Shown here piece after piece: positions 16,285 through 23,220 of a stretch of DNA of 23,450 nt. This stretch comes from a virus, in the IMG/VR virus record IMGVR_UViG_3300008450_007734, positions 1-23,450 of that record; one strand, 5' to 3'. Under the pieces are notes generated by a model. That model was not told where the DNA came from. It worked only from the letters and a program-made list of their open reading frames with translations, and searched no databases. Position numbers and translations under genes: made by a program. Position 1 is the stretch's first letter. Every line of letters begins with the position of its first letter.

Positions 16285-16306
16285 GTCATCGATCCTACTT
16301 GACTGG

Positions 16307-16319
16307 TTATGTAAGCGCA
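16307..16319 (-). promoter_or_regulatory. TGCGCTTACATAA motif upstream of the scaffold gene
   Basis: Thirteen bases (plus strand TTATGTAAGCGCA) are identical to the site before the portal gene. The motif lies 23 bp before ATG 16284 in a 45-bp gap. CATAAC could serve as a -10 box with GTGACG about 16-17 bp upstream, but this match is poor. Confidence 0.5.
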
Positions 16320-16329
16320 ACGCACGACG

Positions 16330-20696: not shown

Positions 20697-20902
20697 GCAT
20701 CGCCTCGGTCGTAGGTCGTCGGCTCGTCTGCGTCGACCTCGCTGGCCTCGTGCCCCTCGGCGAGGTCCGCGCTCGTCAGCAGCAGCGTCGCCACCGCGCG
20801 CGCGGCATCGGCGCTCATCTCGGTGCGCGTCGACCCGAGCACGAGCACGACCACGTCGCCGCGCACGATGGTCCCGATCCCGTCTTCGACAGGCTGCCTC
20901 AT
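20693..20902 (-). CDS. Small protein between terS and terL
   Basis: A 69-aa protein from ATG 20902 that overlaps both neighbours by ATGA/GTGA, which supports translation coupling. It starts RQPVEDGIGTIVRGDVVVLVLGSTRTEM (strand-rich), followed by a helix (SADAARAVATLLLTSADLAEG) and an acidic end (EASEVDADEPTTYD). No family recognised. Position suggests a packaging accessory protein. Confidence 0.65.
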   Translation of the reverse strand: MRQPVEDGIGTIVRGDVVVLVLGSTRTEMSADAARAVATLLLTSADLAEGHEASEVDADEPTTYDRGDA

Positions 20903-21195
20903 TCCGCCGCCGTCGTCGTCACGACCGCCGGCACAAAATCAACCGTGTCGACCTTGCCCGCGTCATCCTGCACCGGCTGCGCCTCGGCGACCTTGCCCAA
21001 GTGACGCTCAAGGACAAGCTCGGCGGCCCGAAGGCGCACCTTCTCGTCGTCGCTTTTCAGGCACCCCCGCAGCGCCTCGAACGCGTCGGGCACAAGCGAG
21101 GCGAACGCCGCGAGGGCTTCGGCGCGCGTCATCACGCCAGCCGGAAGCTTCGGCCGACCGCCGGGATTGCCGGATTTGCCTTTGACGAAAGCCAC
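20899..21195 (-). CDS. terS: Terminase small subunit-like protein
   Basis: A 98-aa protein from GTG 21195, with AAGGA ten bases upstream. It begins AFVKGKSGNPGGRPKLPAGV: the GNPGGRPK box (residues 9-16) is typical of a family of phage proteins encoded just before large terminases and usually named small terminase (DUF5681-like). A helical part follows (TRAEALAAFASLVPDAFEALRGCL, VRLRAAELVLERHLG) and then an Asp/Val/Thr-rich end. In such phages TerS binds the packaging site, often located in or just upstream of its own gene; the structured gap at 21196-21960 would fit. It is short for a TerS, so it may be only the DNA-binding and oligomerisation part. Confidence 0.8.
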   Translation of the reverse strand: MAFVKGKSGNPGGRPKLPAGVMTRAEALAAFASLVPDAFEALRGCLKSDDEKVRLRAAELVLERHLGKVAEAQPVQDDAGKVDTVDFVPAVVTTTAAE

Positions 21196-21251
21196 GCTGG
21201 CACGTTCCTTGTTTTTCGTTGACCTGAAAACCAGCCTACCACAAACGACGA

Positions 21252-21270
21252 CGGGGGCACCATGCCCCCG
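21252..21270 (-). terminator. Hairpin before terS, terminator-like
   Basis: An 8-bp perfect stem (CGGGGGCA/TGCCCCCG) with a three-base loop. On the minus strand it is followed by TCGTCGTTTGT, a poor U-tract. It would end transcripts coming from the helicase side about 57 bases before terS. A binding site for TerS is an alternative. Confidence 0.4.
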
Positions 21271-21330
21271 CCGCCATCCGTGAACCGCGCTTGCCGTCGA
21301 GGTGTAGCGCGGCGCTGCGTAGCGCGCAAG

Positions 21331-21459
21331 TCAGACCCTTGTGAGCCTGCGAACTTCAAGTGCCGCAGCGCGCAGCTCGTTTTCGCTCGTCAAGCTTGCT
21401 TCGTGCGCTGCTTCCGCTTCCGCTCGCACCTTCGCTGCGGCGTTGAGCACCAGAGCCAT
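21331..21459 (-). CDS. Possible 42-aa helical protein
   Basis: ATG 21459 to TGA 21331 encodes a short Ala/Glu-rich protein (ALVLNAAAKVRAEAEAAHEA, then SLTSENELRAAALEVRRL) that reads as a clean amphipathic helix. Upstream is GGAAGCAGG, a passable ribosome binding site. The frame is closed by an in-frame TAG 27 bases upstream of the ATG, so it is not a remnant of a longer frame. It would lie between the helicase and terS. Short length makes chance likely; no family recognised. Confidence 0.35.
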   Translation of the reverse strand: MALVLNAAAKVRAEAEAAHEASLTSENELRAAALEVRRLTRV

Positions 21460-21523
21460 GGTGCCTGCTTCCAGTGCGCCGCGCGTCTATGCAAAGCCAC
21501 GAAAGAGCAGATCAGGCGCTAAA

Positions 21524-21556
21524 GCAAAACGTTTTGCCTTGCAGATCACGCAAGGC
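21524..21556. repeat. Perfect 14-bp palindrome joined to an 8-bp-stem hairpin
   Basis: GCAAAACGTTTTGC (21524-21537) is a perfect palindrome. It overlaps by three bases a second dyad, TGCCTTGC - 7 nt - GCAAGGCA (21535-21557). Two overlapping dyads in non-coding DNA suggest a protein-binding site. Confidence 0.6.
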
Positions 21557-21590
21557 ACGCGGGCGTGACCAGGGATCACCGGGAGGGCGC

Positions 21591-21632
21591 GCCAGCCGCC
21601 CCGCAGGCCCCGCCAGCCGCCCACCTGCCCGC
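21591..21632. repeat. 21-bp spaced direct repeats (GCCAGCCGCCC)
   Basis: GCCAGCCGCCC occurs at 21591 and 21612, exactly 21 bp apart. A second element, CCGCAGGCC, occurs at 21601 and 21642, with shorter CGCAGGCC copies at 21712 and 21970. Spacing near two helix turns is typical of iterons or terminase-binding sites, but the region is of low complexity. Confidence 0.4.
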
Positions 21633-21772
21633 TTGCCCGTCCCGCAGGCCAGCGCACGCCAGAATGCGCCACGGGCTGCACAGCGTGGCCGGCAAGCTGC
21701 GCCCGAGGGCGCGCAGGCCGGGCAAGAGGGCGTCTTTTCTACTTGATCTCAGGTTGAAAAAAAGACCTACCC

Positions 21773-21790
21773 TCTCGGATATATCCAAGA
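21773..21790. repeat. 18-bp near-palindrome centred on GGATATATCC
   Basis: TCTCGGATATATCCAAGA pairs at eight of nine positions; the central ten bases are perfect. It lies in the AT-rich part of the gap, next to the long inverted repeat. On the plus strand TTGAAA stands 18 bp before GATATA, so a promoter on that strand is possible but unsupported by a gene. Confidence 0.45.
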
Positions 21791-21798
21791 AGAAAATT

Positions 21799-21861
21799 CT
21801 TCATATTCATAGTGGGGGTTATACCCCGCCACCAACATGTACCCCCCATATGAAGATGAAG
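21799..21861. repeat. Long inverted repeat, 17 of 20 positions paired
   Basis: The arms 21799-21818 (CTTCATATTCATAGTGGGGG) and 21842-21861 (CCCCCCATATGAAGATGAAG) pair at 17 of 20 positions around a 23-base loop. A smaller GGGG-TTATA-CCCC dyad lies inside. Directly to the right, GGCGGT (21861) and ACCGCC (21896) enclose a CACCCC/GGGGTG hairpin (21876-21892). Confidence 0.6.
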
Positions 21862-21960
21862 GCGGTTTTTTGCCGCACCCCCTACTGGGGTGAGGACCGC
21901 CGACAATCTTCGCCCTTGACAACAGTCTTAGGCATGAGGAGGGGACACATGGCGAGCATT

Positions 21961-23220
21961 CTACCACGCCCGCAGGCCGCGCACAAGGCGCAGACAAGCC
22001 TGCGCCCGCGTCGCTGCGGTGTAGAGCCACCGTCGCTGCTCCTCGTCGGTCTTGCCGATAATGCGGTCATGGTCGACGAGCACCCGCCGGGCCTGTGATC
22101 CCTGCGACTTGTGGCACGTCAGCGCCCACCCGTAGGTCATGATCAGGTCGTCGCGCTTCTTGCAGTCATCCCATCCAGGCGGCGTGCCCGCCGCGCGTAG
22201 CCGCATGGCCATGCGGTCGTCTTCGATGATCTGATCTCTGTAGTTGTCGAGCACCGCTTTGTCGGTTTCGTCGACGAGCGCCAGCGGTGTTCGTGCATAG
22301 CTAACCACGCAAACGTGACCAGGATCGAAGTCGCGAAACCGATCCACGCGCACAAGCTCGCCGTTGACCACGCCATGCTTCGGGCTGTTCATCAAAACCA
22401 TCATCACGTCGCCCGCTTCGGGCATGACGTCATCGCGCCCGCTGGCCCGCAATACGCGCCGCGCAAGCCGGTTGATGTGCACGCGCTGCCGATTCGTCCC
22501 GACTATGATCATCCCGTCGCCGTCGCCGTAGGTCCAGCGCACGGCCGCTTCGGACCCTTTGGCATGCATCTGCCCGCCGCGAAGGCAAACCAGCGGCGCC
22601 GAGCTTTCTGGTTCGCCACCGAGACTCATGGCGTAGGACAGCGCCGCGCCGATTGAGTCGGTGCGGACAAGCGACGCAAAGCGCAGGATCGGGCTTTCTT
22701 CTTCTTGACGGTGAATTGTCTCAAGCTTCCACGTCGGATGCGCCATGACGCCCGCGCTTCTGCCGATTGCGGGAAGCTGGAAATGGTCCCCAACGTAAAG
22801 AAACTTTGCGCCGGCCGCGCGCGCCTTGACGAGCAACCAGACGTCTTCTGTGAGCATCGACGCCTCGTCGACGACGACGACATCGGGCACATCCGCGTCA
22901 ACCTTTTGCCTCCATCGCAACTTGCCTTCATCGTCCTTGACCGGATGAAGAAATGCCCGATGGATCGTCGACACTTCGGCGTCGACGCCGTAGCGCGCCA
23001 GCGTGTCGCGTAGCACGAGCGCCGCCTTTCCGGTCGGTGCCACCCACGCCACGCGCACGCCGCGTCGCCGCCACTCCTGCGCCACTTGCGCAAGCGTGAA
23101 CGTCTTTCCACACCCGGCATAGCCCGCAAGCGTGGCGTCTTCGTCGCTGCCCTTGTCGATCGACCACGCCAAGATCCCATCGTATGCCCGCCGTTGATCG
23201 GGCGACATCGTGGCGCTCAT
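21961..23220 (-). CDS. RecD/Dda-like SF1 DNA helicase
   Basis: A 419-aa protein from ATG 23220, which overlaps the stop of the upstream gene (ATGA). All SF1B helicase motifs are visible: motif I GYAGCGKT (33-40), Ia APTGKAA (61-67), STIHRAF (84-90), motif II VVVDEASML (115-123), motif III GDHFQLPAIG (144-153), and the C-terminal UvrD_C_2-type LTCHKSQGSQ (367-376) with LYTAATRAQ (399-407). The length matches stand-alone phage helicases such as Dda rather than bacterial RecD, which has additional domains. It probably unwinds DNA during phage replication or recombination. It is the last gene of the replication region before the packaging block. No nuclease domain is fused. Confidence 0.93.
   Translation of the reverse strand: MSATMSPDQRRAYDGILAWSIDKGSDEDATLAGYAGCGKTFTLAQVAQEWRRRGVRVAWVAPTGKAALVLRDTLARYGVDAEVSTIHRAFLHPVKDDEGKLRWRQKVDADVPDVVVVDEASMLTEDVWLLVKARAAGAKFLYVGDHFQLPAIGRSAGVMAHPTWKLETIHRQEEESPILRFASLVRTDSIGAALSYAMSLGGEPESSAPLVCLRGGQMHAKGSEAAVRWTYGDGDGMIIVGTNRQRVHINRLARRVLRASGRDDVMPEAGDVMMVLMNSPKHGVVNGELVRVDRFRDFDPGHVCVVSYARTPLALVDETDKAVLDNYRDQIIEDDRMAMRLRAAGTPPGWDDCKKRDDLIMTYGWALTCHKSQGSQARRVLVDHDRIIGKTDEEQRRWLYTAATRAQACLRLVRGLRAW

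Follow-up and report, generated by a model that had tools for sequence, protein, structure and literature searches.

The window analysed here (23,450 bp) is part of a 37,131-bp record, G001, to which it is 99.98-100% identical; the two ends of this record share 120 bp, so that it closes into a circle of 37,011 bp. The phage belongs to an uncultured family. As stated in the preliminary description, a gap of 765 bp (21196-21960) separates two genes, both read, like the gap features described below, on the minus strand: the gene for a Dda-like SF1 helicase (21961-23220; PHROG phrog_325, E 1e-67; Pfam AAA_30 and UvrD_C_2) and terS (20899-21195), which codes for a DUF5681-like small terminase of 98 aa (PF18932) and lies directly upstream of terL. 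PF18932 was matched by eight of the eight aligned terS members (best E 1.6e-9), and the window's own copy scored 26.7, slightly below the cut-off of 27.5. At least three unrelated kinds of N-terminal part occur among the family's small terminases (L102, L105, L110, L118, L120 and window 20899-21195), which have a C-terminal VDxVDFxPxI-like motif in common, as though DNA-binding parts had been exchanged while a docking tail was retained. No supported gene was found in the gap of the window phage; tblastx matches to relatives were spread over all frames, and small genes are therefore not claimed there.

DNA searches against isolated phages gave no match to the gap region. By TerL, the nearest isolates were Guernseyvirinae (Jerseyvirus, Kagunavirus) and similar phages, at ~33% identity; members of this subfamily are described as headful packagers in genome announcements. 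Unlike the window phage, Escherichia phage Ivi has a terS gene of 585 nt with only ~90 bp upstream of it. A host search via TerL in genome contigs returned one remote match, which did not identify the host. TerL scans yielded two overlapping sets of ~40 and 59 loci, among which eight genomes had overlapping contig ends and map as circles. Because many relatives, motifs and segments were inspected and related sequences are not independent, the p values given below serve as guides. The results least dependent on such choices are the AT rank, the spacing of the promoter motif P0 and the replacement in relative L020, all described below.

The gap had been described as highly structured, with at least seven dyads. 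Short dyads are indeed enriched: 24 perfect dyads with arms of at least 6 bp were found, compared with 8.8 ± 3.2 in 200 dinucleotide shuffles, none of which reached 24, and six with arms of at least 7 bp, compared with 2.4 (p = 0.025). The structure does not extend to unusually long perfect dyads, as arms of at least 8 bp showed no enrichment (two compared with 0.7 in the shuffles, p = 0.13); other windows of 765-bp length contain zero to five dyads with arms of this size. The reported short direct repeats are present, mostly inside a GC-rich stretch peculiar to the window phage, and the AT-richer block turned out to be more pronounced than claimed, since it is the AT-richest 100 bp of the 37-kb genome (39% GC, the next lowest being 48%). 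Rfam scans of the window and its relatives gave no covariance-model match.

Comparison with 13 relatives showed the gap to have conserved segments at either end and a variable middle. In G008, the two ends are ~1.5 kb apart, the AT-rich end lying beside the primase gene and the hairpin end beside terS. The gap therefore consists of two separable elements and not one, each staying with its own neighbour genes: module A on the helicase side (~21753-21986) and module B on the terS side (~21233-21329). The dyads behave differently along the gap. The one nearest to terS has a conserved sequence in every relative with the same terS that covers the site, except for the divergent L026; those nearest to the helicase gene are kept in plan with changed sequence, and a palindrome in the middle is missing in several relatives. 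This palindrome, AAGGCAAAACGTTTTGCTTT (21521-21540, with flanking GATCTGC at 21477-21579), is present in eight genomes (G001, G006, G008, G010, G013, G015, L013 and L020) and was not found in G007, G009, G012 and L022; the region is dispensable. As it lies upstream of a small-gene cassette in G008, G015 and L020, the palindrome is probably a leftover or an operator. GATCTGC was rejected as an iteron because it occurs at background frequency across the genome. On the helicase side of the palindrome, the GC-rich stretch with its short imperfect repeats (21586-21731) has no counterpart at this place in the aligned relatives. The space between the modules is a site for added genes. Small unrelated reading frames lie there in G008, G009, G013, G015 and L022, and in G008 and G015 they have a strong promoter of their own.

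Module A combines a sigma70-type promoter motif over the helicase stop codon, a series of stem-loops and the AT-richest 100 bp. The promoter-like sequence, P0 (TTGTGC-N17-TAGAAT, 21958-21986), holds the helicase stop codon inside its -10 box. In 13 relatives, the motif recurs over the replicase stop, again with a 17-bp spacer, and the pattern TTGN3-N17-TAN3T lies over the replicase end in all main-group genomes examined as well as in L020 and L141; genome-wide, each strand has only zero to three occurrences of it. Because the -35 box is in part coding, that portion may be kept for another reason. The first stem-loop, H0 (21861-21901), pairs GGCGGT...ACCGCC around CACCCC/GGGGGTG (folding z of -3.5 on one strand and -4.6 on the other) and is kept in G010, where the inner stem is changed yet still paired. 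It is followed by a long stem-loop, H1 (21799-21861), with 21-nt arms that are 86% complementary and a plan that recurs in relatives with other sequences. The third, H2 (21774-21789), is a short palindromic hairpin whose arms were placed by hand; it is fully paired (100%) in each of the 13 relatives, whereas arms swapped between relatives pair to 39%. Most relatives have H2 ~107-120 nt from the stop codon, and it lies further away in G001, G010 and L142-L145. Behind it come a G-rich tract and a T-run (AGGGTAGGTCTTTTTTTCAAC, 21753-21773), which are part of the AT-richest region. The same succession is seen in most main-group members, the AGGGTAGGTCTTTTTTTCAAC tract itself being kept in G006, G009 and G015 and similar in G014, L022 and L145. 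Canonical terminators lie beyond module A in G006, G009, G013 and G015.

The sequences of module A differ strongly between groups of relatives, and relatives whose replicases differ have the same plan at the 3' end of a primase or helicase gene. The mean folding z was -3.8 on one strand and -3.7 on the other (random windows, -0.7), and across the relatives neither strand was preferred overall; single values on the sense strand range from -0.6 (L144) to -8.3. Among the eight genomes arranged in this way, module A has the highest AT content in five and comes second or third in the remainder. A possible frameshift site preceding H2 on the opposite strand (A AAA AAG) was rejected, as it is lost in G010 and has no supporting ORF. 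We also rejected a large RNA in a conserved ~200-nt stretch of L142-L145, because inspection by eye of three of them showed that it can be read as a 43-codon ORF. In these relatives, the ORF can be read in a very conserved ~130 bp downstream of the helicase gene and ahead of module A; it starts directly behind a -10-like box and is possibly leaderless.

Module B begins, in the direction of transcription, with a second promoter-like sequence, P1 (TTGCGC-N17-TACACC, 21301-21329), and continues with a predicted RNA hairpin, hairpin B (21247-21275), which has a 13-bp stem and a TGG loop. The sequence between P1 and the loop varies among relatives, and the distance of 61-65 nt holds in the 13 relatives measured (G008 was left out, as the script took another copy of the loop sequence). 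Over 13 relatives, 96.6% of the stem cells are paired; on the transcribed strand, the departures, drawn from nine distinct sequences, comprise 17 G-U, no A-C and one other (binomial p = 1.5e-5 for the G-U bias, relatedness ignored). The oriented strand folds at -44.3 kcal/mol (z -5.1) and the opposite strand at -23.6, and the transcribed strand was the more stable one in every relative compared. Since the departures are nearly all G-U and the transcribed strand folds better, hairpin B probably acts as RNA. Just behind it, GTTTGTGGTAGGCT (21233-21246) comprises the U-rich tail of the hairpin and a possible extended -10 element (TGnTAnnnT), P2, whose TGnTA is kept in 13 of 13 aligned relatives at a spacing from the hairpin that varies by 0-3 nt. 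This variation and the G-U-only departures also disfavour hairpin B as an activator-bound DNA dyad.

The stem of hairpin B is GC-rich, as in an intrinsic terminator. The T-run behind it is weak in the window phage (GTTTGTGG), where a terminator scan did not report the hairpin, and strong at the corresponding site in L102, L105, L108 and L120. In more distant relatives, whose small terminases are of other types, this site is occupied by ordinary intrinsic terminators, followed by a promoter-like sequence and terS; in L105 and L107, a terminator and a promoter fill the ~60 bp that separate terS from a small preceding frame. As a terminator, hairpin B is unusual in its weak T tail and in lying very near the expected start of P1. 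Module B most likely controls late transcription, perhaps by terminating it, attenuating it or protecting the 5' end. The P1 transcript would form hairpin B, serving as terminator, attenuator or leader hairpin, with P2 as a possible second promoter immediately ahead of terS. A late-transcription unit with a promoter and then a terminator ahead of the late genes is known from lambda (pR'-tR'). Module B is like it in having a promoter followed by a terminator-like hairpin at this position, and unlike it in that the hairpin is much nearer to the promoter, the T tail is weak and no Q-like antiterminator was identified.

The preliminary description had proposed a replication origin downstream of the helicase gene, for which we find fair circumstantial support, and in our analysis module A is most likely the replication origin of the phage. 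This reading draws on its position 3' of the replicase, at the AT-richest site, on stem-loops conserved in plan and on the replacement of the element by iterons in L020. The latter has terL, terS and hairpin B of the same kind as the window phage and a replicase that is only 28% identical. On the 3' side of this foreign replicase (L020:3312-3614), eight copies of AAGTGTCC lie on two strands within 300 bp, together with a tract of 30% GC. Repeat copies and an AT-rich tract are the usual appearance of an iteron origin, and the L020 element is a candidate for an origin of this type. The window phage shares with it the genome place and an AT-rich tract, and differs from it in having no iterons.

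Cumulative GC skew, which had been put forward as a check, did not support the proposal: the curve shows no turn at the gap, and a skew-defined origin was rejected there. It turns ~7 kb upstream, at a divergent promoter pair. This back-to-back pair (TTGACN-N17-TAN3T; ~7.05 kb upstream of terL in G001, outside the window, and near 5234 in L049) has CAGATC in both spacers, is kept in G008-G013 and on one side only in G006, and probably represents early divergent promoters with an operator. Two further promoter-like sequences were seen on the minus strand. One, TTGCGCTTACATAACCAGTCAAGTAGGAT (window ~16292-16320), lies between structural genes and is kept in G006 and G013, and in G008 with 18-bp spacing. 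The other, TTGC...GCTAGCCT (TAGGCT in G013), is found ~3.3-4.9 kb upstream of terL in G006, G008, G009, G010, G012 and G013, reads against the replication genes and, in G006, lies close to where the primase gene starts.

The arrangement of module A is comparable to that of the crenarchaeal plasmid pRN1. Replication of this plasmid requires, in cis, a ~100-nt stem-loop on the 3' side of its Prim-Pol/helicase gene; the structure of this element is conserved, its sequence is not. Bordetella phage BIP-1 was noted to have a similar stem-loop, and according to the authors origin function had not been directly proven (PMC4234260). Like these, module A has its stem-loops directly 3' of a primase/helicase replication gene; as in pRN1, structure is kept without sequence, most members have no iterons and a separate terminator may adjoin the element. 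The window phage departs from pRN1 in that no Prim-Pol domain was detected in its replicase and that a Dda-like helicase gene lies between replicase and module A; the module itself is AT-rich, contains two or three hairpins and has a promoter-like motif over the stop codon. The replicase of G006 is of the Prim-Pol/DUF3987 type (PF09250, E 2e-36); the 853-aa replicase of the window phage gave no Prim-Pol match, and the two share only DUF3987 (below cut-off) and primase PHROGs. Module A would thus be an AT-rich stem-loop origin of the pRN1 kind, preceded by P0 across the helicase end, at which the primase/helicase of the phage would open the duplex and prime DNA synthesis, possibly assisted by transcription from P0. 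We infer that the gap lies where the block of early genes (replication) meets that of late genes (packaging, structure), two blocks of the same orientation, and that it would be a composite junction in which module A serves as origin and module B as transcription control. To this combination we assign a probability of about one half.

Several observations count against the origin. All five departures from Watson-Crick pairing in H2 are U-G on the sense strand, so that module A could work as RNA, single folds are as weak as the z of -0.6 given above, the phage's own 853-aa replicase gave no Prim-Pol match, and GC skew does not turn at the gap. Module A might instead encode a small regulatory RNA, or be a structured 3' UTR of the early operon, and not be an origin, with P0 directly upstream and canonical terminators next in four relatives in agreement with this. 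Such an RNA is at odds, however, with folding that has no overall strand preference, with sequence conservation that is very low for a regulatory RNA, with the highest AT content of the genome, with the iterons at the same place in L020 and with the lack of an Rfam match, and we regard it as unlikely. The motifs P0, P1 and P2, hairpin B and the terminators of the relatives would equally suit a gap that is a transcription boundary only, with early terminators on the helicase side, a late promoter and terminator on the terS side, and neither origin nor packaging site. Yet the ~10 G-rich bases between H2 and its T-run are unlike an intrinsic terminator, several relatives have a separate canonical terminator further on, and the iterons of L020 again speak for more than a boundary, which makes this reading very doubtful. 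We give little credence to a transcription-driven origin, in which RNA started at P0 would adopt the stem-loop folds and be kept on the DNA as a primer by the G-rich tract and T-run that follow H2; if true, one element in an uncultured family would join a pRN1-like stem-loop with RNA priming.

A cos or pac site upstream of terS, which had also been proposed, is not supported. Hairpin B and its flank would in that case be read by the downstream DUF5681-type small terminase. The gap is at the usual place for such sites, each genome has one strongly conserved hairpin B sequence, a pattern scan matched only this family, the hairpin was found only upstream of terS where examined, and L020 kept it despite its exchanged replication side. 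A packaging site is nevertheless hard to reconcile with stem departures that are G-U and never A-C on the transcribed strand, with strand-asymmetric folding and with the terminators at the same site in more distant relatives. Nor, as far as the sequences tell, does hairpin B follow the type of terS: L102 carries the same hairpin loop with an unrelated terS, and in L026 a DUF5681-type terS lies within ~20 bp of the preceding reading frame without the hairpin, so that the co-occurrence of site and terS expected of cos or pac was not found in these two. The eight circular assemblies open at scattered positions, none of them in the gap, and contig ends, tried as a proxy for genome ends, did not cluster at hairpin B. 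The headful packaging announced for the nearest TerL isolates, at ~33% identity, argues against a cos site only. Overall, we consider a packaging site at hairpin B quite improbable.

We know of few origins mapped for phages with Prim-Pol-type replication modules, and in PMC4234260 the extension of the pRN1 stem-loop to phages rests on one phage group. About 20 sequences of the uncultured family show the same 3' plan, and in one relative, L020, replicase and element have been exchanged together for the iteron type. Module A is a compact origin candidate of ~250 bp, and the example shows that structure in a gap ahead of terS does not by itself indicate a packaging site.
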